This document shows, one piece after another, positions 1,878-20,446 of a stretch of 64,000 nt of DNA. The translations under genes and the position numbers were made by a program. Position 1 is the first letter of the stretch. Every line of letters starts with the position of its first letter. The DNA comes from Mesorhizobium sangaii (GTDB lineage: Bacteria > Pseudomonadota > Alphaproteobacteria > Rhizobiales > Rhizobiaceae), in assembly GCF_014207355.1 (NCBI RefSeq), contig NZ_JACHEF010000002.1:1054001-1118000 (forward strand), written 5' to 3'. The notes below the pieces were generated by a model. That model saw only the letters and a program-made list of their open reading frames with translations. It ran no database searches and had not been told where the DNA came from.

Positions 1878-3464
1878 TCAGGCCTGGAGCCAGCACTTCG
1901 CCAGGGCGTAGCCGTTCATCAATTCCTGATGCGGATCATCGACCCAGCCATCAACCTTGGCGCCGGTCGCATCGATGAACTGGTTGAACATTGGCAGGAT
2001 CAGGCCACCCTCGTCGCGCACCAGGACAGCCATGTCATGGTACATCTGCTTGCGCTTGGTCTCGTCGAGTTCGGCACGCGCCGCCAGCACCATCTTGTCG
2101 AAGTCCGGACGCTTGAAACGTGTGTCGTTCCAGTCGGCGGTCGACAGATAGGCGGTGGAGTACATCTGGTCCTGCGTCGAGCGGCCGCCCCAGTAGGAAG
2201 CGCAGAAGGGCTGCTTGTTCCAGACCTCGTTCCAGTAGCCGTCGCCGGGCTCGCGCTTGAGCTCGATCTTGATGCCGGCCTTGGCCGCGCTCTGCTGGAA
2301 CAGCTGCGAGGCATCGACAGCGCCCGGGAAGGCGACGTCCGAGGTCCTCAGCAGCACGGTGCCGTCGTGACCCGACTTCTTGTAGTGGAACTTGGCCTTG
2401 TCGGGATCGTACTTGCGCTGCTCGATCTCGGTGAACAGCGGATAGGACGAATTGATCGGGAAGTCGTTGCCGAGCGAGCCGTAGCCGCGCAGGATCTTGT
2501 CCAGCATTTCCTCGCGGTCGATGGCCAGCTTGAGTGCCATGCGCAGATCGTTGTTGTCGAACGGTGCCGTGTTGCAATGCATGATGAACACGTAGTGCCC
2601 AGGACCAGCGTGGTTCCGGATGGTGACGCCCGGCAGGCGCTTGATCAGGTCGACGATCTTCGGCTCGACGCGGTTGATCATGTTGACCTGGCCGCCCTGC
2701 AGGGCCGCCGTGCGGGCGGTCGCATCGTTGATGACGATGACTTCGACCTGGTCGGCATGGCCCATCTTGTCGCCCTGCCAGTAATTGGCGAAGCGCTCGC
2801 CGCCATGGCGAACGCCAGGCTCGTTGGTCTTGACCACGTACGGGCCGGCCGAGATGCCGGCATCCGGCTTGTCCTTGCCGCCGTTCGGCTGCACGATCAG
2901 GTGATAGTCGCTGAGCAGATAGGGCAGGTCGGCGTTGGCCTCCTTCAGCGTCAGCACCACTTCCTTGCCGCTCGCCTTGATAGTCTCGATGCCCTTCATG
3001 TAGCCGAGCGCGCCGGATTTCGACTTTTCGTCCGAATGGCGCTCGAGAGTCGCGGCGACGTCTGCCGCGGTCACTGTCTTGCCATTGTGGAATTCGACGC
3101 CGTCGCGGATCTTCAACGTCCACACCTTGGCGTCGTCCGAGGAGCCGATCTCCTCGGCGATGCGGTTCTCGAGCTTGCCTTCCGGCGACAGCTCGACGAT
3201 CATTTCGCCCCAGCACTTGCCGAAGGCGAACGGCACCTGCGTCATCATAAGCGCCGGATCGAGGCTGTTGGTGGATTCGCCGCCGACGAGGCCGGCCTTC
3301 AATGTGCCGCCCTTGATTGGGCCGGCAGCGCGCGCCGCACCTGAAAGCAGCGAGTTGGCGAAGGTCGCGGTGACGCCGAGCGCTGCCGCCCGACCGAGAA
3401 AATCGCGACGGCTCAATTTGCCGGAAGCGACTCGCCGGCTAAGAAATTCCAGTTCGTTCGACAT
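1878..3464 (-). CDS. ABC transporter substrate-binding protein, family 5 (peptide/nickel type)
   Basis: Periplasmic solute-binding protein of 528 residues, normal for family 5. The N-terminus carries a twin-arginine motif (SRRDFLG near residues 18-24) followed by an Ala-rich hydrophobic stretch ending at ARAAG, so Tat export is likely. The mature part shows family landmarks: the 'LDPALMMTQ' region, 'WTLKIRDGVEFHNGKTVTAADV' and 'ALKLAIDREEMLDKIL'. I chose the ATG at 3464 because GAGGAA precedes it at good spacing; an in-frame start 25 codons upstream lacks this and would bury the Tat signal. It is the first gene of the transporter operon. A 154-bp gap with an 8-bp inverted repeat separates it from the CocE-type hydrolase upstream. 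Confidence 0.93.
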   Translation of the reverse strand: MSNELEFLSRRVASGKLSRRDFLGRAAALGVTATFANSLLSGAARAAGPIKGGTLKAGLVGGESTNSLDPALMMTQVPFAFGKCWGEMIVELSPEGKLENRIAEEIGSSDDAKVWTLKIRDGVEFHNGKTVTAADVAATLERHSDEKSKSGALGYMKGIETIKASGKEVVLTLKEANADLPYLLSDYHLIVQPNGGKDKPDAGISAGPYVVKTNEPGVRHGGERFANYWQGDKMGHADQVEVIVINDATARTAALQGGQVNMINRVEPKIVDLIKRLPGVTIRNHAGPGHYVFIMHCNTAPFDNNDLRMALKLAIDREEMLDKILRGYGSLGNDFPINSSYPLFTEIEQRKYDPDKAKFHYKKSGHDGTVLLRTSDVAFPGAVDASQLFQQSAAKAGIKIELKREPGDGYWNEVWNKQPFCASYWGGRSTQDQMYSTAYLSTADWNDTRFKRPDFDKMVLAARAELDETKRKQMYHDMAVLVRDEGGLILPMFNQFIDATGAKVDGWVDDPHQELMNGYALAKCWLQA

Positions 3465-3561
3465 GTTGAGTTCCTCACTCTGTTGGTTCGACTCTGCGGT
3501 CGTTTTTCTTGTTTCTTGTGAGGAGAATAATGACCGCAAGGGAAAGCGGTAAGCAAGACCG

Positions 3562-3598
3562 AATGCGACATGCCGTGGCGTAAATCGTACGTCGCATT
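3562..3598 (-). promoter_or_regulatory. 8-bp inverted repeat upstream of the ABC binding-protein gene
   Basis: AATGCGAC at 3562-3569 and GTCGCATT at 3591-3598 are perfect inverted copies separated by 21 bp. They lie about 100 bp upstream of the binding-protein start, in the only sizeable gap (3465-3618) of the minus-strand run 9072 to 1. The arrangement suits an operator or two half-sites of a dimeric regulator. Which regulator binds is unknown; a short repeat of this kind could also arise by chance. Confidence 0.4.
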
Positions 3599-3618
3599 TG
3601 GACCAACGAAATCCGTGG

Positions 3619-5604
3619 TCACAGGAGGACGCGCGGCACCCCTTCCTCGAAGTTACGCTCGAAAACGAGAGTTTCGCCCTCGTAGGCCTCGATTCTGGCG
3701 CTCACAATGAAGTTTTGCGCGTCCGATCGCATTTCGGCAAATGTTTCGGTGCGCACCGACCATCCATTTCGCGACAGGGTCTGGGTCCAGTGCGTTTTTC
3801 CAGAGGCCGCCAAAGGATCGTCCGGATGGATCGTCCAGGTCTCGCGGGCGATGCTGCCATGGACGAGGCCGTGGGCAAGATCGCGCACCTCGCCGAAATC
3901 ATCCACGATGGAAAGCGTCACAATTCCGGTCTTCTCGTCGCGATCGACATGACGCTCGGAATTGGTGGCGCGGATCGTCTCGGTCGCCCACGGCGTGGCG
4001 CCTTCCGGCTCGGCGAACGTCACTTCGTTGCCCGTCGCCAAGGGGCGCAGCGGCAAGGCCAGCGTCGCCGCCGACAAGGCCAGCCGGACCGGTTCGGGCG
4101 ACGGCCAGATCATCGGCCAATAGGCGTTCGACACGGCGATGCGCAGATGGTGGCCTGCCGGCACGCGATAGGCGCATTGATCGAGCACCACGCGCGCCGA
4201 CACGGTTTCGCCCGGCACCAGCGCTTCGGGGAATTCGTGCGAATTGCGATGCGTCAGATTGAGCACGCCATAGGAGATCAGTTCCGAGGCGCCGTCAGGA
4301 TGCACATCGCACAGCCGGATCGCGATGTTTGCCTGCGGGCGGTCGGACGACAGCCGCACCTCGACTTCGGGCGCGCCGACGATGTCGACCGCCTCAGCCA
4401 GCTCCGGCTGGTCGAAACACACCGACAAAGCGTCGTCGGGGCGTTGGTCGCCGGGCAATTCGGGGCCGAAGGTGAACGGAAAATACTCGCCGCCGGCGAG
4501 GCCGCAGCTCTGCGGCGAGGCAACGATAGCGGGCTTGCTGCCATCAGGGATCAGATCGATCGATTGCGTATTGACGGTGGACGACGGCCATTCCTGCTCC
4601 GCCACCCAGCGGCCGGGCCGCTCGGGATGCCAGCGCGCGGGGCGGACACTGTCCATGACATAGGCGCGGTAGGCCGGATCGGCCTCGACGCCGGTGTCGA
4701 TGCCTTTCAGCCAGCGATCCCACCAGCGCAACGCTTCCTGCAGGAAGCCGATGGCGGGCTTGGGGGCGGCGTAGTGCGGGTATTTGTGGATCCACGGCCC
4801 GACAATGCCCTTCACCGGAGACGGGATGTTGGTGACGAGGTGCGAGATCGTGTTGCGGTAGCCGTCATGCCAGCCGCCGATCGACAGCACCGCGGCCTGG
4901 ATGGCGGAATAGTCCTCGCAGATCGAGCCGCGTTTCCAATAGGCGTCGCGATGCTGGTGCTTCAGCCACAGCGGTGCCAGGAAGGGCTGGTTCTCCAGCC
5001 GGGTCAGCCACAGATCGCGCCATCGGTTGTCGCCGGTCAGGAGCGGGTCCGGCGGCCGCGACGAATAGGACAGCATCGTCGAGGCCCAGCCGAAATTCTC
5101 GATCAACAGGCAACCGCCTTTGTAGTGGATGTCGTCGGCATAGCGGTCGACGGTCGAACACAGGCTGATGACCGCCTTCAGCGCCGGCGGCTGCTTGGCC
5201 GCCACCTGCAGGCAGTTGAACCCGCCCCAGGATATGCCCATCATGCCGACATTGCCGTTACACCAGGGCTGCGATGCCGCCCAGGCGATGACGTCGCAGG
5301 CGTCCTGCAATTCCTGCTCGGAATATTCGTCGTCCATCAGCCCTTCGGAATCGCCATTGCCGCGCATGTCGACGCGGATCGACGCATAGCCGTGACCGGC
5401 GAAATAGGGATGCGTCAGCTGATCGCGAAAGATGGTGCCGTCCCGCTTGCGGTAGGGCAGGTGCTCGAGGATCACCGGCACCGGGTCGTCGCCGGCATCG
5501 TGCGGCATCCACACCCGCGCCGACAGCCGGCAGCCATCGGGCATGACGATGCCCATGTCTGGATATTCGACGACCTTGCGGGGAAATTCGGTGACGGTTT
5601 TCAT
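3619..5604 (-). CDS. CocE/NonD family hydrolase (Xaa-Pro dipeptidyl-peptidase S15 fold)
   Basis: A 661-residue serine hydrolase. The N-terminal alpha/beta-hydrolase domain has the nucleophile elbow GISWGG with Ser125, an oxyanion-type Tyr in 'HLPYRKRDG' (about residue 51), and the candidate acid and base in 'GGWHDGYRN' and 'PWIHKYPH'. The C-terminal part (about 380-560) is the jelly-roll domain of CocE/PepX proteins (PF08530 type), recognisable at 'RLCDVHPDGASELISYGVLNLTHR'. Family members cleave esters, amides or Xaa-Pro peptides. It has no signal peptide, so it is probably cytoplasmic. It lies between the ureide genes (82 bp downstream of the deaminase-fold gene) and the peptide-type ABC transporter, so it may act on the imported substrate (inference). 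Confidence 0.9.
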   Translation of the reverse strand: MKTVTEFPRKVVEYPDMGIVMPDGCRLSARVWMPHDAGDDPVPVILEHLPYRKRDGTIFRDQLTHPYFAGHGYASIRVDMRGNGDSEGLMDDEYSEQELQDACDVIAWAASQPWCNGNVGMMGISWGGFNCLQVAAKQPPALKAVISLCSTVDRYADDIHYKGGCLLIENFGWASTMLSYSSRPPDPLLTGDNRWRDLWLTRLENQPFLAPLWLKHQHRDAYWKRGSICEDYSAIQAAVLSIGGWHDGYRNTISHLVTNIPSPVKGIVGPWIHKYPHYAAPKPAIGFLQEALRWWDRWLKGIDTGVEADPAYRAYVMDSVRPARWHPERPGRWVAEQEWPSSTVNTQSIDLIPDGSKPAIVASPQSCGLAGGEYFPFTFGPELPGDQRPDDALSVCFDQPELAEAVDIVGAPEVEVRLSSDRPQANIAIRLCDVHPDGASELISYGVLNLTHRNSHEFPEALVPGETVSARVVLDQCAYRVPAGHHLRIAVSNAYWPMIWPSPEPVRLALSAATLALPLRPLATGNEVTFAEPEGATPWATETIRATNSERHVDRDEKTGIVTLSIVDDFGEVRDLAHGLVHGSIARETWTIHPDDPLAASGKTHWTQTLSRNGWSVRTETFAEMRSDAQNFIVSARIEAYEGETLVFERNFEEGVPRVLL

Positions 5605-5686: not shown

Positions 5687-6280
5687 TCAATTCAGCGGAA
5701 TGTCGTTGTCGCCCTTGCTCGCCTGGTAGGCGCCGGACAATTCGTCATAGCGGGCCGAAATCTTGCCGATGCGCGTCTCCAGGCGCTGGCGTTCGGTCTC
5801 GGGCAGCGACCGCACCAGCCTGCGGATCGAAAAGCTCTTCCAATAGGCATTCTCGGCATTGTAGCCGCCGGGATCGAGGGTGAAGACCTCCTTAAGGATC
5901 TTCAGATCGTGCGGGATGGCGAAGCTGTCGCGCGAATCCTCGTGGCTGAACAGATAGTAGAAATTGTCGAAGCCGGTCCATGTGATCGCCGACAGGCAGA
6001 GCGAGCAGGGTTCGTGCGTGGCGATGAAGATGGCTTCCTTGGTATCCACGCGCTCGGCCTTCGGCATTTCATAGAAGCGCTTCAGGCAATGCACCTCGCC
6101 ATGCCAGAGCGGGTTTTCCATCTCGTTGTTGGTCTCGGCCAGCACCAGCGAACGGTCGTCCTTGCGCAGAATCGCGGCGCCGAACAGCTTGTTGCCGTGG
6201 GCAACGCCGTCCGCCGTCTTCGGCACGATGTCCTGCTCGATGACGTCGAGCAGGCGGTCGATCAGCGAAATGTCGGTCAT
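5687..6280 (-). CDS. CMP/dCMP-deaminase-fold protein of unknown substrate, in the ureide operon
   Basis: A 197-residue cytidine-deaminase-like zinc enzyme. The zinc and catalytic signature is complete: HGE (His and Glu in 'LWHGEVHCLK') and PCSLC in 'THEPCSLCLSAITW'. It is longer than a typical guanine or cytosine deaminase (about 155 residues) because of a charged C-terminal helix region (LPETERQRLETRIGK onward). The ATG at 6280 overlaps the TAA of ureidoglycolate lyase (TAATG), so the two genes are translationally coupled. A different-fold guanine deaminase is encoded at 19133, so guanine deamination is not an obvious need. A role in ureide or purine nitrogen release fits the context, but the substrate is unknown. 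Confidence 0.85.
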   Translation of the reverse strand: MTDISLIDRLLDVIEQDIVPKTADGVAHGNKLFGAAILRKDDRSLVLAETNNEMENPLWHGEVHCLKRFYEMPKAERVDTKEAIFIATHEPCSLCLSAITWTGFDNFYYLFSHEDSRDSFAIPHDLKILKEVFTLDPGGYNAENAYWKSFSIRRLVRSLPETERQRLETRIGKISARYDELSGAYQASKGDNDIPLN

Positions 6281-6783
6281 TACAGGCGCTCGTTGGGGAG
6301 ATGGATCTCGTAGGCGTGCGAGAAATGGAACTCTTCCAGGTTGGAGCCGTCGCCGCCACGGTCGACGATCAGGAAATCCTGCGCCTCGCCGAGCGGCGTC
6401 AGCACGCCGTGCCACAGGTTGCGGGAATAGTTGATGCCTTGTCCGGGCGCGGTGATGAAGGCCTGCGGTTCACCCGGTCCCCCATCGCCGTCGTGGCAGA
6501 CGACGACCAGGAACGGCCGCGGCGACAGCGGAATGAAAGCCTGGGTGCCGAAGGGATGGCGCTCGACCATGGTCAGCTTCAGCGGCAATTCGTAGGGCGT
6601 GCCGCGTACCATCGAGATCAGCACGCGGGCGTTCGGCCCTGTCGCTTGCGCCGTGGCAAGATCGTGATAGCGCTCGGCCCTGCCGCCATTGATCGGATAG
6701 TGGTTGTCGCCGCCCATGTCGATGACGTCGCCGAAGGCGGCAAAATTCTCGCGGGTCAGCCGCCGCGCGACGATGCGGGTCAC
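6280..6783 (-). CDS. allA: Ureidoglycolate lyase
   Basis: Splits (S)-ureidoglycolate into glyoxylate and urea, the last step of the ureide pathway. The 167-residue protein matches the AllA family length and landmarks: 'LTRENFAAFGDVID' near the start, 'ARVLISMVRGTPYELP', 'MVERHPFGTQAFIPLSPRPFLVVV', 'GINYSRNLWHGVLTPL' and 'FLIVDRGGDGSNLEEFHF'. The start is a GTG at 6783 (VTRIVARRLTREN), which overlaps the TGA of the upstream aminohydrolase gene in a GTGA junction. The downstream deaminase-fold gene is also coupled. The three genes therefore form a tightly packed unit. Confidence 0.93.
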   Translation of the reverse strand: MTRIVARRLTRENFAAFGDVIDMGGDNHYPINGGRAERYHDLATAQATGPNARVLISMVRGTPYELPLKLTMVERHPFGTQAFIPLSPRPFLVVVCHDGDGGPGEPQAFITAPGQGINYSRNLWHGVLTPLGEAQDFLIVDRGGDGSNLEEFHFSHAYEIHLPNERL

Positions 6784-7643
6784 GGCGCCCGCCTTGCAAT
6801 GCCGGCGCCGCCGAGCTTGGCGTGGCGGTTGACGTCCTTGTAGAGTAGATAGCGGAATTTGCCCGGGCCGCCGGCATAGCAGGCCTGCGGGCAGAAGGCG
6901 CGCAGCCACATGTAGTCGCCGGCCTCGACCTCGACCCAGTCCTGGTTGAGGCGGTAGACCGCTTTGCCTTCCAGCACATAGAGACCGTGCTCCATGACAT
7001 GGGTCTCGGCGAAGGGAATGACCGCGCCGGGCTCGAGCGTGACGATGGTCATGTGCATGTCGTGGCGCAAATCGGCCGGGTCGACGAAGCGCGTCGTCGC
7101 CCAGCGGCCCTCGGTGCCCGGCATCGGCGTTGGCGCGATGTTCTGTTCAGTGGCGAAGAAGGCTTCCGGCGCATCGAGACCGTCGACCGCCTCGTAAGCC
7201 TTGCGGATCCAGTGAAAACGGACGTCGTCCTTGCCCGCGTTGCGAACCGTCCATCCGCTGCCCGGCGGCAGGAAGGCGAAGCCGCCCGGTCGCAGCACAT
7301 GTTTCTTGCCGGCAAGCAGAACGGTCAACTCGCCTTCGACCACGAACAGGGCGCCTTCGGCGCCGGCGTCGGGCTCTGGGCGCTCGCTGCCGCCACCGGG
7401 CGCGACCTCGACAATGTATTGCGAGAACGTCTCGGCAAAGCCGGACAGCGGCCGCGACAATATCCAGACGCGGGTCTTGTCCCAGAACGGCAAGGCGCTG
7501 GTGACGATGTCCTGCATCACCCCCCTGGGGATGACGGCATAGGCTTCGGTGAAGACGGCGCGGCCGGTCAGCAGCTCGCTCTGGCCGGGGTGGCCGCCAT
7601 GCGGCGCGTAATAGGTTCGGTCGGGCATCCTGATCGTATCCAT
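6780..7643 (-). CDS. (S)-ureidoglycine aminohydrolase, bicupin
   Basis: Releases ammonia from (S)-ureidoglycine to give (S)-ureidoglycolate (YlbA/AllE/UGHY family). The 287-residue protein has two cupin domains. The C-terminal one carries the metal-site pattern around 'VTLEPGAVIPFAETHVMEHGLYVLEGKAVYRL' with Glu and His ligands, and 'GDYMWLRAFCPQACYAGG', which is diagnostic of this family. The N-terminal opening 'YYAPHGGHPGQSELLTGRAVFTEAYAVIPRG' also matches the family. I use the ATG at 7643; a second ATG five codons later is possible. It lies 10 bp after the PuuE-UraD gene and its TGA overlaps the GTG of ureidoglycolate lyase. Confidence 0.93.
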   Translation of the reverse strand: MDTIRMPDRTYYAPHGGHPGQSELLTGRAVFTEAYAVIPRGVMQDIVTSALPFWDKTRVWILSRPLSGFAETFSQYIVEVAPGGGSERPEPDAGAEGALFVVEGELTVLLAGKKHVLRPGGFAFLPPGSGWTVRNAGKDDVRFHWIRKAYEAVDGLDAPEAFFATEQNIAPTPMPGTEGRWATTRFVDPADLRHDMHMTIVTLEPGAVIPFAETHVMEHGLYVLEGKAVYRLNQDWVEVEAGDYMWLRAFCPQACYAGGPGKFRYLLYKDVNRHAKLGGAGIARRAP

Positions 7644-7653
7644 GAGGTTAAAC

Positions 7654-9072
7654 CTATTGCGGAAGCATGTCCTTGAGGCGGAGCAGCGCGATGCGCTCAA
7701 CCTGTTTGCAGGCGGTCTCGAATTCAACGCCGCGGCTGTTGCCGATGCGCGCCTCGAATTCCGCCAGGATCTCCTCCTTGGTCTTGCCTTTTACCGCGAT
7801 GATGAAAGGAAAGCCGAAGGTGGTGACGTAGGCGGCATTGAGCTTGGAAAACAGTTCGCGTTCCTTATCGGTCAGAGCGTCGAGGCCGGCCGAGGCCTGT
7901 TCGCGGGTCGATTCCGCCGTCAGCCGTTTGGCCTTGGCCAGTTTGCCGGCAAGGTCGGGATGAGCGTTGAGCACTGAAAGCCGCTCTGTCTCGCTGGCGG
8001 AACGGAAAACGCGGCAGAGCGCGTTGTGCAGGCCGCCGGATGAGTCATGCGCCGGGCCCAGCTCCAGCTCGTAGGCGCGTTCGGCAATCCAGGGCGAATG
8101 CTCGAAGACGCCGCCGAAAGTGTGGAGGAACGCCTCGAATTCCATCTTCGATGGCCTGAGTGCCGCGGGTCGATAGGGATGGTTCTCTTGCCAGTGGTGG
8201 GCGATATCGATGCGCCGTGCCAGCCAGACCTTGTTGTGCGACTTCACATAGTCGACGAAGCGCTTCAGCGCCGCCACCCGGCCCGGGCGCCCGACGAGGC
8301 GGCAATGCAGGCCGATATTCATCATGCGCGGCCGCCCGGCTTTGCCCTCGGCATAGAGCGTGTCGAAACTGTCCTTCAGATAGGCGAAGAACTGGTCGCC
8401 TGAATTGAAGCCTTGTGGCGTCGCGAAGCGCATGTCGTTGGCGTCGAGCGTGTAGGGGATGATGAGCTGCGCGCCGCCTTCATGCTCGAACCAGTAGGGC
8501 AGCTCGTCGTCATAGGTGTCCGACACATAGGCGAAGCCGCCTTCCTCAGCCACCAGCCGCACCGTGTTGACCGATGTGCGCCCCGTGTACCAGCCGGTCG
8601 GGCGCTGGCCGGTCACCTCGTAGTGCAGACGGATCGCCGCTTCGAGGTCCCGGCGCTCGTCCTCGGGGCTGTGGTCGCGATAGTCGATCCATCTCAGGCC
8701 GTGCGAGGCGATCTCCCAGTCGGCTTCCTGCATTGCCGCGACCTGGTCGGGCGAACGGGCGAGCGCGGTGGCGACGCCGTAGCAGGTCACCGGCACTTCG
8801 GCCTCGGTGAACAGCCTGAGCAGCCGCCAGAAACCGGCGCGGGCGCCGTATTCGTAGATTGATTCCATGTTCCAGTGGCGCTGGCCCACCCAGGGTGCGG
8901 CGCCGACGATCTCCGACAGGAAGGCTTCCGACGCCTTGTCGCCATGCAGCACGCAGTTCTCGCCGCCTTCTTCGTAGTTGACCACAAACTGCACGGCGAC
9001 ATGCGCACCACCAGGCCATTTCGGATCCGGCGGATTGGCTCCATAGCCGCGCATGTCTCTGATGTAACGCAT
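7654..9072 (-). CDS. Bifunctional allantoinase (PuuE type) / OHCU decarboxylase (UraD)
   Basis: A 472-residue fusion. Residues about 1-298 are a PuuE-type, polysaccharide-deacetylase-fold allantoinase ('MRYIRDMRGYGANPPDPKWP', 'HWNMESIYEYGARAGFWRLL', 'ASHGLRWIDYRDHSPEDE', 'GWYTGRTSVNT'). Residues about 308-472 are OHCU decarboxylase, with the catalytic His371 in 'VLNAHPDLAGK' and the 'STREQASAGLDALT' motif. One polypeptide thus decarboxylates 2-oxo-4-hydroxy-4-carboxy-5-ureidoimidazoline to (S)-allantoin and opens allantoin to allantoate. The ATG at 9072 has GGGAGG upstream. It is the first gene of the minus-strand ureide operon and diverges from HIU hydrolase, which makes its OHCU substrate. 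Confidence 0.95.
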   Translation of the reverse strand: MRYIRDMRGYGANPPDPKWPGGAHVAVQFVVNYEEGGENCVLHGDKASEAFLSEIVGAAPWVGQRHWNMESIYEYGARAGFWRLLRLFTEAEVPVTCYGVATALARSPDQVAAMQEADWEIASHGLRWIDYRDHSPEDERRDLEAAIRLHYEVTGQRPTGWYTGRTSVNTVRLVAEEGGFAYVSDTYDDELPYWFEHEGGAQLIIPYTLDANDMRFATPQGFNSGDQFFAYLKDSFDTLYAEGKAGRPRMMNIGLHCRLVGRPGRVAALKRFVDYVKSHNKVWLARRIDIAHHWQENHPYRPAALRPSKMEFEAFLHTFGGVFEHSPWIAERAYELELGPAHDSSGGLHNALCRVFRSASETERLSVLNAHPDLAGKLAKAKRLTAESTREQASAGLDALTDKERELFSKLNAAYVTTFGFPFIIAVKGKTKEEILAEFEARIGNSRGVEFETACKQVERIALLRLKDMLPQ

Positions 9073-14452: not shown

Positions 14453-15724
14453 CTACATAGGCCGTTTCAAGCCCAGATGGTCGCGCAGTGTGCGGCCTTC
14501 ATAATCCTTGCGGAAAAGCCCACGCCTCTGCAGTTCCGGCACGACCAGCGTGGCAAAGGCATCGAGTTCGCCGGGGAAATAGGAGGGCATGACGTTGAAG
14601 CCGTCGGCCGCACCGCCTTCGAACCGCGCCTGCAGCTCGTCGGCGACCTGGGCCGCCGTTCCGACGATGCGCCAATGGCCACGCGCACCGGCGAAATGCC
14701 GTGCCAACTGGCGGATGGAGAGGTTGTCCCGACGTGACTGCTCGATGACCAGTGCTTGCCGGCTCTGCATGCCTTCGCTGGGCGGTAGCTCGGGCAGTGG
14801 CCCATCGATCGGATAGCGCCACAGATCGGCGATGCTGAGGTAACTGGACAGCAGCGCAACGCCGACATCGTCGGGGATCAGCTCCTGCAATTCCTCGTAT
14901 TTTTCCTGGGCCTGCGTCGTGGTTTCAGCCACCACGGGCGCGACGCCGGGCATGATCTTGATGTCGTCGGGCTCGCGCCCATAGGCCGCCAGGCGCCCCT
15001 TGAGATCGTCATAGAAGGCCTTCGCTTCTTCGAAAGTCTGTGCCGCGGTGAACACCACATCGGCGGTGCGGGCTGCAAGGTCGCGGCCGACGTCCGAGGC
15101 GCCGGCCTGAACCAGCACCGGTGCGCCCTGCGGCGAACGCGGCAAGTCGAGCGGATCCCGAACCGAAAAGCTCTGGCTATCATGACCGGAACCGGAAGCG
15201 CCGCCGGGCTTGCCGCGCCAAAGTCCGGTGACCACCTCGGCAAACTCACGCGCCCGCTGGTAGCGATCGGCATGCGGCCGCAAGCCCGTCGAGCCGAAAT
15301 TGGCGGCCTCGATGGGACTGGCCGAGGTGACCAGGTTCCAGCCGCCCCGCCCGCCGCTCAAATGGTCGAGCGACAGAAAGGTCCGTGCCAGCCCGTAGGG
15401 CTCGTTGTAGCTCGTCGACGCGGTGGAGACGAGGCCGATACGGCTGGTCTGGACGGCCAGCGCCGACAGCAGGCTGATCGGCTCGAAGCCGATCGAGCGC
15501 GAGGTCTGGCTGGAGATGGCGACATTGGCTTCGCGCAGGCCGGCGGCATCCTCGCAGAAGACCATGTCGAACTTCGCGGCCTCCGCGGTGCGCGCCAGCT
15601 GGATGTAATGGTCAATGTCGATGCCGGCAGTCACATGTGCCTTGGGATGGCGCCAGGCGGCGATGTGATGGCCTGTCGCCCACAGGAAGGCGCCAAGTTT
15701 CATCTGGCGGGAAGCGGCAGTCAT
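14453..15724 (-). CDS. LLM-class flavin-dependent monooxygenase (NtaA/SnaA/DszA family)
   Basis: A 423-residue bacterial-luciferase-like monooxygenase of the NtaA/SnaA/DszA group. The family pattern is clear: 'LGAFLWATGHHIAAWRHP', 'ARTAEAAKFDMVFCED', 'FLSLDHLSGGRGGWNLVTS', 'VLVQAGASDVGRDLAARTADVVFTAAQ'. Such enzymes use FMNH2 supplied by a separate reductase to oxidise N- or S-containing small molecules. GGAGGTGA precedes the ATG, and the start overlaps the stop of the second monooxygenase in an ATGA junction. It sits in the purine cluster between xdhC and the LysR gene, so an N-heterocycle or amine substrate is possible (inference). No flavin reductase gene is adjacent. Confidence 0.92.
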   Translation of the reverse strand: MTAASRQMKLGAFLWATGHHIAAWRHPKAHVTAGIDIDHYIQLARTAEAAKFDMVFCEDAAGLREANVAISSQTSRSIGFEPISLLSALAVQTSRIGLVSTASTSYNEPYGLARTFLSLDHLSGGRGGWNLVTSASPIEAANFGSTGLRPHADRYQRAREFAEVVTGLWRGKPGGASGSGHDSQSFSVRDPLDLPRSPQGAPVLVQAGASDVGRDLAARTADVVFTAAQTFEEAKAFYDDLKGRLAAYGREPDDIKIMPGVAPVVAETTTQAQEKYEELQELIPDDVGVALLSSYLSIADLWRYPIDGPLPELPPSEGMQSRQALVIEQSRRDNLSIRQLARHFAGARGHWRIVGTAAQVADELQARFEGGAADGFNVMPSYFPGELDAFATLVVPELQRRGLFRKDYEGRTLRDHLGLKRPM

Positions 15725-16734
15725 AGGTCACCTCCGCCGGCAAGTCCGAGATGCGAGCGCAAATTTGTCCCGCGATAGCTTTCTCGAAACAGGCCGCGCC
15801 GCCGCAGCGCCGGCAAAACCAGATCGACAAAACTGTCGAGTGCCGAAAGCTTCGTCGGCATCTGCATGTTGAACCCGTCGCAGCTTTTCGACCGGAACAG
15901 GTCTTCGAGCCTGTCGGCGGTGACGGCCGGCCTGTCATCAATGACCGGCGAGACATTCATCAGCACCTTCACGGCATCAGGGTCGCGCCCGCAGGCAGCA
16001 ACGCGGAGCTTCAGATCGTCATGGCGTGTTTTCGCGCTCTCGATCGGTTCGTCGTCCAGCAGGACGACATCTGCGGTGCGTGCGGCAATGTCCATGTCTG
16101 ATGCCGACAGGCCGGACAGCACCAATACCGGCCTGTCCTGTGGCGAGCGCGCGACGTTCAGCGGCCCGCGCACCGAAAAGAATTCGCCCTTGTGGTCGAG
16201 CAGGTGCATCTTTTCGGGATCGTGGAAGCGGCCGCCGATTTTGTCGAACTTGAGCGCGTCCTTGTCCCAGCCTTGCCACAAGCCCTGAACGATGCCGACA
16301 TATTCCTCGCTGCGGCGGCGAAAATCGTCGCCGGAAAACCCCTCCGGCCGGCTGAAATTGGCCGCCTCGCGCGGCGCCTGCGCCATGGTCGCGTTCCAGC
16401 CGGCGCGGCCATGGCTGATGATGTCGAGCGACGCAAAACGGCGCGCCAGATTGTAGGGCTGGTGGGCAACAGTCGAGGCCGCCGCGACCAGCCCTATCCT
16501 GCTCGTTACCGTCGCCAGCGCGGCCACCAAGGTCGTCGCTTCGAAGGGCATCGTCGCGACATCGCTGCCGGAAGCCGGCGCGGAATCGGCGAAAATCACC
16601 AAGTCCACACCGGCCGCCTCGGCCCTTTGCACAAACCGCGCCAGAAGGCTGAAGTCCGGCTCTGCTGCTGGCGATGGCTCGGCGATTCCCGGAAGTGGCG
16701 AAACGGCAAGATGCATTGTGGCGCCGTTGTCCAT
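15721..16734 (-). CDS. LLM-class flavin-dependent monooxygenase, second copy
   Basis: A 337-residue relative of the downstream monooxygenase, shorter by about 90 residues, mainly in the region after the FMN-binding motifs. It keeps the core signatures: 'FVQRAEAAGVDLVIFADSAP', 'FASLDIISHGRAGWNATMAQ', 'VLVLSGLSASDMDIAARTADVVLLDDE'. The ATG at 16734 has AGGGA at 7-bp spacing; an in-frame TTG five codons upstream is less likely. The two genes are translationally coupled. They may form a heteromer or be two enzymes for related substrates; the sequence does not decide. Confidence 0.9.
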   Translation of the reverse strand: MDNGATMHLAVSPLPGIAEPSPAAEPDFSLLARFVQRAEAAGVDLVIFADSAPASGSDVATMPFEATTLVAALATVTSRIGLVAAASTVAHQPYNLARRFASLDIISHGRAGWNATMAQAPREAANFSRPEGFSGDDFRRRSEEYVGIVQGLWQGWDKDALKFDKIGGRFHDPEKMHLLDHKGEFFSVRGPLNVARSPQDRPVLVLSGLSASDMDIAARTADVVLLDDEPIESAKTRHDDLKLRVAACGRDPDAVKVLMNVSPVIDDRPAVTADRLEDLFRSKSCDGFNMQMPTKLSALDSFVDLVLPALRRRGLFRESYRGTNLRSHLGLAGGGDL

Positions 16735-16856
16735 CGATGGTCCCTGCAAGGCGAAATACCATCGGAACTATGTTCGTCACGTCCAGAGATGGCAACCGCT
16801 CGCGCTGGTCCAACGGCCGATCACTTGCCGGCCAGCTCTTACTCGCCAGCCAGCCT

Positions 16857-19132: not shown

Positions 19133-20446
19133 ATGACCTCGACACTTCTGCGCGGCCGCACGCTGTCCTTCGTGCGCTGGCCGCAAACCATCGATGACCA
19201 TTCCGCCTGGCGCTACGAGGAGGACGGCGGCCTGCTGATCCGCGACGGCCGGATCGTCGCCGCCGGTGCCTATGCAGACGTCGAGAAACAGGCAGGAGAA
19301 GCAGCGAAAAAAATCGACCATCGGCCGCATCTGCTGCTGCCGGGTTTCATCGACGCGCATGTGCATTTCCCGCAGATGCAGATCATCGCCTCCTATGGCG
19401 CCGAACTGCTCGACTGGTTGAACACCTATACCTTCCCGGAAGAGACGAAATTCGCCAATGCGCAGCATGGCCGCCGCATCGCGCGGCTGTTCCTCGACGA
19501 GATGGTGCGCCACGGCACCACGACGGTGGCCGCCTACTGCTCGGTGCACAAGGCATCCGCCGAGGCCTTCTTTGCCGAATCGCATGACCGCAACATGCTC
19601 AACATCGCTGGCAAGGTGATGATGGACCGCAATGCGCCCGACGGCGTCCTCGACACGCCGCAATCCGGCTACGACGACAGCAAGGCCCTGATCGCGCAAT
19701 GGCACGGCAAGGGCCGCCAGCACTATGCGATCACACCGCGCTTTGCCATCACCTCGTCACCGGACCAGATGGAGATGGCCGGCGCGCTGTGCCGGGAGTA
19801 CCCCGACCTGCACATGCAGACGCATCTGTCGGAAAACCACGCCGAAATCGCCTTCACCCAGGAACTCTATCCGTGGTCACGCGACTACACCGACGTCTAC
19901 GAGCATTACGGGCTGCTGGGGAAAAAGAGCCTGTTCGGTCATTGCATCCATCTGTCGGACCGTGAGGCGGATGCGCTGTCGGACAGCGGCTCGGTAGCGG
20001 TGTTCTGCCCGACCTCGAACCTGTTCCTCGGCTCCGGCCTGTTCGACTATCAGCGTTTTCGCCGCCGCGACAAGCCGGTCCGGATAGCCGCCGCCACCGA
20101 TGTCGGCGGCGGCACCAACTATTCCATGCTGCGCACCATGGACGAAGGCTACAAGGTTATCGCGCTGAACGGCGAGAAGCTCAATCCCTTCCAGTCCTTC
20201 TGGCAGATGACGCGCGGCAATGCTGAGGCGCTGTCGGTGGCGGAAAAGATCGGCACGCTCGATGAAGGCAGCGACGCCGACATCGTCGTGCTCGATGCCA
20301 GGGCTACACCGGCGATGCGGCTCAGGATGGAAACGGTCGAGACGCTGGCGCAGGAATTGTTTCTCTTGCAGACGCTGGGCGACGATCGCACCGTGCGCGA
20401 GGTCTATGTCGCCGGGCGGGCTGCCAAATCCGACATGGCGATTTAG
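19133..20446 (+). CDS. guaD: Guanine deaminase (amidohydrolase type)
   Basis: Zinc-dependent deamination of guanine to xanthine, feeding xanthine dehydrogenase. The 437-residue protein has the amidohydrolase metal motif 'GFIDAHVHFPQ', then 'QTHLSENHAEI', the His in 'LFGHCIHLSD', and the catalytic Asp in 'AATDVGGGTNYSML'. The early stretch 'GRTLSFVRWPQTIDDH' and 'SYGAELLDWLNTYTFPEE' are specific to guanine deaminases rather than other TRZ/ATZ hydrolases. The ATG at 19133 lies 1 bp after the puuD stop, so the two are co-transcribed. Confidence 0.95.
   Translation: MTSTLLRGRTLSFVRWPQTIDDHSAWRYEEDGGLLIRDGRIVAAGAYADVEKQAGEAAKKIDHRPHLLLPGFIDAHVHFPQMQIIASYGAELLDWLNTYTFPEETKFANAQHGRRIARLFLDEMVRHGTTTVAAYCSVHKASAEAFFAESHDRNMLNIAGKVMMDRNAPDGVLDTPQSGYDDSKALIAQWHGKGRQHYAITPRFAITSSPDQMEMAGALCREYPDLHMQTHLSENHAEIAFTQELYPWSRDYTDVYEHYGLLGKKSLFGHCIHLSDREADALSDSGSVAVFCPTSNLFLGSGLFDYQRFRRRDKPVRIAAATDVGGGTNYSMLRTMDEGYKVIALNGEKLNPFQSFWQMTRGNAEALSVAEKIGTLDEGSDADIVVLDARATPAMRLRMETVETLAQELFLLQTLGDDRTVREVYVAGRAAKSDMAI

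Follow-up and report, generated by a model that had tools for sequence, protein, structure and literature searches.

The deaminase gene in a ureide operon

The window, i.e. the whole stretch of 64,000 nucleotides that was analysed, carries at positions 5687-6280 of the minus strand a gene for a zinc deaminase of the CDA fold, identified from its translation, its PF00383 match and its homologues. The reading frame starts with the ATG at 6280 and encodes 197 amino acids plus a stop codon, with no internal stops in the translation. The gene with the motifs HGE and PCSLC that an earlier note had described is real: the motifs are residues 60-62 (6095-6103) and 91-95 (5996-6010, both on the minus strand), and the PF00383 match reaches 39.2 bits against a cut-off of 25. 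The gene allA for ureidoglycolate lyase lies at 6280-6783 on the same strand (NF009932, 200.1 bits; start GTG at 6783). CATTA on the plus strand at 6278-6282 reads TAATG on the minus strand, where the last base of the allA stop TAA (6282-6280) is also the first base of the deaminase ATG (6280-6278); the claimed overlap with allA is present and measures 1 nt. The allA start codon in turn overlaps by 4 nt (GTGA) the stop of the gene for (S)-ureidoglycine aminohydrolase (UGlyAH; 6780-7637, minus strand, NCBIfam match, start approximate), and a gene for a fused PuuE allantoinase and OHCU decarboxylase follows at 7654-9072 on the minus strand (TIGR03212 and TIGR03164). The description of the deaminase gene as third member of a ureide block is correct when counting from UGlyAH; with the fused gene it is the fourth co-directional one. 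Also as described, a guanine deaminase of a different fold, separate from the deaminase gene, is encoded at 19133-20446 on the plus strand; it belongs to the amidohydrolase type (TIGR02967, 565.8 bits).

The window covers the route from xanthine to glyoxylate with Xdh, a PuuD-like urate hydroxylase, HIU hydrolase, OHCU decarboxylase, PuuE, UGlyAH and AllA. The genes xdhA and xdhB were named by likeness to annotated records, and the PuuD-like urate hydroxylase, which has no NCBIfam match, is 80% identical to annotated PuuD. UGlyAH passes not only the plain UGlyAH models but also NF040771, the model for a bifunctional allantoicase/(S)-ureidoglycine aminohydrolase, and the pathway in the window may need no separate allantoate enzyme. 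The proposal that the deaminase marks an unassigned nitrogen-releasing step was borne out in part: the protein falls into none of the clades of characterised guanine or nucleoside deaminases and its gene is coupled to allA, but, judging by gene content, the steps of the ureide branch are all covered. A ureide as substrate of the deaminase was dropped, since the ureide steps have their enzymes and many members of the subfamily are encoded away from ureide genes.

Two genes resembling LLM-type flavin monooxygenases lie inside the purine cluster at 14453-16749, between xdhC and a LysR gene. Downstream of the deaminase gene, on the same strand and after a gap of 82 bases, are genes for a CocE/NonD-family hydrolase (matching TIGR00976) and an ABC transporter binding protein with peptide/nickel matches, all below cut-off (1878-5604). 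Among the best 80 named loci of the deaminase, 45 have the hydrolase cluster and 53 that of the binding protein.

Family placement and conserved residues

Searches against NCBIfam gave no match to the deaminase below E 0.1; the sole match up to E 1 was ComEB at E 0.11, and neither TIGR02967, the model for amidohydrolase guanine deaminase, nor NF008113 (TadA) matched. The nearest solved relatives by sequence were the CDA guanine deaminases 1tiy and 1wkq (E 1.1e-5), and a profile search improved the match to 1wkq to E 3.7e-9. An alignment-based AlphaFold2 model (m96ed48785a7a) was obtained from 40 sequences with a pLDDT of 85.2 and a pTM of 0.84; a single-sequence prediction of pLDDT 44.2 was left out. 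Foldseek retrieved 116 chains with this model at E ≤0.001. The 50 VIA matches listed, with Z values from 11.7 to 15.4, comprised TadA-like proteins, deaminases of guanosine, cytosine and guanine, and related enzymes. The best among them was 6l2m (Z 15.4, rmsd 2.6 over 142 residues), and plant guanosine deaminase 7dc9 (Z 14.1, rmsd 3.0 over 151 residues) and yeast cytosine deaminase (Z 13.8) were nearly as close. Because these values lie so close together, no substrate was chosen from the rank in fold similarity, and the absence of B. subtilis GuaD from the 50 listed matches does not speak against a likeness to GuaD. As modelled, the protein is of the CDA superfamily fold over most of its length.

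A tree was calculated from 47 sequences and 148 core columns, in which GSDA was represented by its core segment only. The 23 members of the deaminase subfamily formed one monophyletic group on a long stem of 3.16 (UFBoot 87; near-root support values may have shifted upon re-rooting). This group fell outside the GuaD/GSDA and TadA groups, clade labels that we assigned by the motifs of these families. The earlier note had held that a position inside a clade of characterised guanine or nucleoside deaminases would make the protein a redundant known enzyme; the tree gives it a branch of its own. Judged from sequences and model, the deaminase is a distinct long-branch subfamily of the CDA superfamily with its own signature, made up of NPLxHGE, THEPCxxCLxxIxWxGFDN and the tail YQxSK...IPL. 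The open-licence papers searched contained no description of this subfamily. PADLOC gave no match and hence no sign of a role in defence, and none of the 14 stretches matched in a scan of viral contigs was a relative of the deaminase.

The alignment of 101 distinct homologues has 36 invariant residues. In the N-terminal part these include Lys31, Phe33-Gly34, Asn51 (6128-6130, minus strand), Asn56-Pro57 and the complete HGE motif His60-Gly61-Glu62, and in the middle part His89, Pro91, Cys92 and Cys95 of the PCSLC motif, Trp101, Asp105, Asp125, Tyr140 and Asn144. By analogy with guanine and guanosine deaminases, His60 would be a zinc ligand and Glu62 the catalytic residue; Cys92 and Cys95 would correspond to the two zinc-ligand cysteines. 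When five GuaD proteins of the CDA type were aligned with the deaminase by profile, the alignment ended at residue 115 and paired Asn51 and Trp101 with invariant residues of these proteins. In hhalign, Asn51 aligns with the invariant asparagine of CDA-type guanine deaminase, a residue described as substrate anchor in excerpts of PMC9739398.

The C-terminus is, as the earlier note had pointed out, longer than in standard nucleobase deaminases, and it carries invariant residues: Ser182, Tyr185-Gln186, Lys189, Ile194 and Leu196, all but the first in the motif YQxSKxxNxIPL (residues 185-196; 5693-5728, minus strand). The proteins end in IPL or IPLN in 93 of the 101 homologues, in IPLD or IPLS in five and in IAL or IALA in two, and one sequence is incomplete. 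By analogy with GSDA, whose C-terminus caps the active site according to excerpts of the same study (PMC9739398), this tail is likely an active-site lid. The model has a pLDDT below 50 at residues 121-132 and 193-197, and both stretches hold invariant residues, a combination that would fit a lid which becomes ordered upon dimer formation or substrate binding.

Occurrence and genome context

The gene is present in 61 of 61 genomes of the window's genus, in the other 60 with 82-97% identity to that of the window genome (7.2 Mb), a distribution that is not a matter of chance. Nine annotated records nevertheless call it only 'nucleoside deaminase'. The closest named homologues, considering the best 80 named loci, are from Mesorhizobium with identities of 95% and below. 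In 13 of 16 same-genus loci the deaminase was more conserved than both AllA and UGlyAH, which indicates a strong constraint; in the remaining loci it tied with UGlyAH (L010) or lay 1-2 points below it (L013 and L029). In the two most divergent loci, L033 and L034, the deaminase was 86-87% identical, versus 73-76% for UGlyAH and 74-75% for AllA.

Of 385 genomes sampled from the class, 13 were carriers, as were 37 of 297 from the order, eight of these 37 belonging to the window's genus. In the family of G221, a group with small genomes, 76 of 110 genomes had the gene, including 10/10 of those with a completeness of 90% or more and a contamination of 5% or less. Plasmid records matched in 18 of 72,556 cases, one of them from the actinobacterium Tsukamurella (50.5% identity). 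A match on a plasmid of Methylobacterium nodulans, with 25.6% identity over 58% of the query, is probably outside the subfamily.

For the analysis of the neighbourhood, genes were called with a codon-scored caller, since longest-ORF calling failed in GC-rich loci, and related loci were counted separately throughout. The earlier note had asked how far the position next to allA is conserved. In the best 80 named loci, which are of Rhizobiaceae type, mostly from Mesorhizobium and not independent, allA was within three genes of the deaminase in 78, UGlyAH in 77 and PuuE in 75. All 78 allA genes were on the deaminase strand, and the allA stop and the deaminase start overlapped by 1 or 4 nt in 46 of the 78 loci, a count biased towards overlap because it takes the in-frame start nearest to the allA stop. 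The two loci without allA, L130 and L132, have an NCS2-type permease upstream of the deaminase.

The 39 more diverse loci, 30 genome stretches and nine plasmid stretches that are likewise not independent, contained a purine, ureide or NCS2 gene in 16 cases, an NCS2 nucleobase permease among these genes in 12 loci, and none of them in 23. Ten of the same genomes provided control loci around another PF00383 gene, and such a gene was found in 0/10 of these, where the PF00383 gene itself was disregarded if it matched the GuaD query; one control (L249) surrounds a GuaD-like paralogue, another (L251) an unclassified PF00383 gene, and the others were labelled TadA-like. The difference between 16/39 and 0/10 corresponds to a Fisher p of 0.02, to be taken as a guide only since the loci are non-independent. 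The deaminase gene follows an NCS2 permease on plasmids of Shinella, Pararhizobium, Ensifer and three Phyllobacterium, precedes one on the Tsukamurella plasmid, and on the Phyllobacterium plasmids also faces allA-alc-puuE. Both xanthine-type neighbouring permeases that were checked, from Shinella and Tsukamurella, passed TIGR03173. The stretch of a Haematobacter plasmid had no purine gene near the deaminase. Some diverse loci of this kind have as neighbours mazG and cysG, as in Sinorhizobium meliloti Ak57, or genes read as ispG or as gcvT and anmK; the last arrangement, with the deaminase between anmK and gcvT, was present in the 30 loci listed for the G221 family. HIU hydrolase occurred in 101 of the 385 class genomes, namely in 11 of the 13 carriers (all except G061 and G349) versus 90 of 372 non-carriers (Fisher p 1.3e-5, uncorrected for kinship and on the assumption that both counts drew the same 385 genomes). 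The genome context of the deaminase is purine-linked. In other lineages members are encoded next to nucleobase permeases or at a distance from ureide genes, which suggests as substrate a base that precedes the ureides in the pathway and not a ureide.

Candidate substrates and alternative readings

A second guanine deaminase, for instance an isoenzyme that has a high affinity or is regulated differently and is linked to the use of ureides or to import through a xanthine-type permease, would account for the closest PDB matches by sequence, the conserved asparagine anchor and tryptophan and the adjoining xanthine-type permeases, and the genomes G349, G639 and G268 demonstrate that more than one GuaD-like protein per genome is possible. 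Against it stand the position of the subfamily outside the GuaD/GSDA group and the end of the profile alignment at residue 115, beyond which the FDD motif and the terminal Tyr of GuaD have no counterpart in it. Moreover, a separate guanine deaminase, of either amidohydrolase or CDA type and with partial matches counted, was found in 42 of 42 carriers, a number that refers to deaminase carriers and not to purine-degrading genomes at large. The 42 were the class and order carriers outside the window's genus plus the window genome; other same-genus genomes and further carriers of the G221 family lay outside this set. TIGR02967 was over the cut-off in 29 of them. The count also includes four matches near the cut-off or split, i.e. 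those of G506, G596 and G680, which span about 315 of 401 positions and score 367-374 bits where the cut-off is 375.4, and that of G700, which is in two pieces. A CDA-type GuaD of 54-100% identity was found near full length in eight carriers (G221, G268, G327, G358, G436, G456, G512 and G647) with a query taken from G327 and an identity threshold set after the table was seen, and one fragment of 57 residues at 60% identity in G061 was counted as well. The two types mostly replace each other over the 42 carriers; G349 and G639 break this exclusion with 44-48% relatives of the CDA type alongside the amidohydrolase GuaD, and the relative in G639 (L198) falls within the GuaD group of the tree. The deaminase subfamily coexists with either type, and in one genus its gene is about 2 kb (G725) or 3 kb (G617 and G694) from that of amidohydrolase GuaD, so it behaves as a co-worker in the pathway rather than as a replacement. 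Since all 42 carriers hold a separate enzyme, the deaminase is unlikely to be simply the guanine deaminase, as the earlier note had anticipated, and a role as a second one appears rather improbable.

An adenine or adenine/adenosine-type deaminase of the CDA fold has still smaller chances. The same fold is found in TadA, whose substrate is adenosine in tRNA, and in the three Phyllobacterium records, L130 and L132 the deaminase directly follows a second type of NCS2 permease, which was read as AzgA-like and has no NCBIfam match. In G506, G596 and G680 PF00962 gave no match and Ade none above 260 bits, which would leave room for such an activity, but the other 39 of the 42 carriers have one or the other: Ade was over the cut-off in 20, the window genome among them, and PF00962 matched in 29. 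PF00962 fails to separate adenosine from adenine deaminases, which makes this a weaker argument than that for guanine. We likewise consider it unlikely that the protein is a pyrimidine-base, pterin or broad salvage and sanitation deaminase whose purine neighbours outside Rhizobiaceae are incidental. The 23 diverse loci without purine genes, the many carriers in the small-genome family with their gene between anmK and gcvT, and the proximity in fold to yeast cytosine deaminase would agree with such a role; the co-occurrence with HIU hydrolase and the recurrent association, across genera, with genes for nucleobase permeases and ureide breakdown argue against it.

The most likely role of the protein is the deamination of a nucleobase, namely of an amino-oxopurine that is not guanine, a reading to which we assign about an even chance. 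The retained base-anchor asparagine, which would fit guanine too, the 23 of 39 diverse loci without a purine gene and the two of 13 carriers without HIU hydrolase count against it. The leading candidate substrates would be isoguanine, yielding xanthine, and 8-oxoguanine, yielding urate; methylated guanines and pterins seem less likely. The analysis shows the zinc motifs, the CDA fold of the predicted model, a subfamily of its own, the linkage to purine genes and a separate guanine deaminase in the 42 carriers; catalysis, base class, lid and substrate are inferred from these. A free purine-type base may enter the cell via nucleobase permeases. By analogy, it would be anchored by Asn51 in a pocket over which the IPL tail closes, His60, Cys92 and Cys95 would hold the zinc, and Glu62 would activate the water. 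The product, xanthine or urate, would feed the oxidative purine and ureide pathway. To our knowledge, the deamination of isoguanine and 8-oxoguanine has so far been assigned to amidohydrolase-fold enzymes. More tentatively, and at clearly less than even odds, we propose a new functional subfamily of the CDA fold, a free-base deaminase that acts on isoguanine or 8-oxoguanine beside the guanine deaminase and feeds the ureide pathway. If this is true, such an enzyme is widespread in Alphaproteobacteria, with carriers as different as symbionts of root nodules and a streamlined group that is probably SAR11-like. The deaminase could fill a step in the harvest of purine nitrogen by soil, nodule and ocean bacteria. 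The signature, the operon partner and the short list of candidates make the function directly testable.

One of the closest known systems is the CDA-type GuaD (B. subtilis 1tiy/1wkq and the proteins in L182, L187, L188, L189 and L192), which shares with the deaminase the fold family, similar zinc motifs, the Phe-Gly pair, the substrate-anchor Asn and the Trp after PCxxC. The deaminase has HGE and ITWxGFD where GuaD has HAE and IYWARLD, and an extra conserved C-terminal helix with the IPL end where GuaD has a terminal Tyr (five of five end in Y); the two are on separate branches of the tree and occur in the same genomes. TadA has the same fold and zinc motifs and forms a separate clade in the tree, and the window genome has a TadA-like gene of its own (L001, labelled by reading). 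GSDA (7dbf, 7dc9) resembles the deaminase in fold, Asn anchor and a probable C-terminal cap as far as the excerpts of PMC9739398 describe it. It is only 15% identical in the structural alignment, and its cap uses Tyr185 whereas the deaminase ends in IPL.

For SAR11, excerpts of PMC11698098 list the predicted 'purine deaminase 1 (tadA)' and 'purine deaminase 2 (tadA)' in purine gene sets, together with genes for an NCS2 permease, PuuD and XDH. In G221, which we take as SAR11-like on the grounds of genome size and gene order, the gene of the deaminase subfamily lies outside the PuuD-XDH-HIU block, between the genes read as gcvT and anmK. The block itself holds a GuaD-type CDA protein (L176, 4871-5338) that is not of the deaminase subfamily; it ends in KIRY, is encoded between PuuD-like and XdhC-like genes of this small-genome alphaproteobacterium, and would correspond to the SAR11 'purine deaminase 1'.
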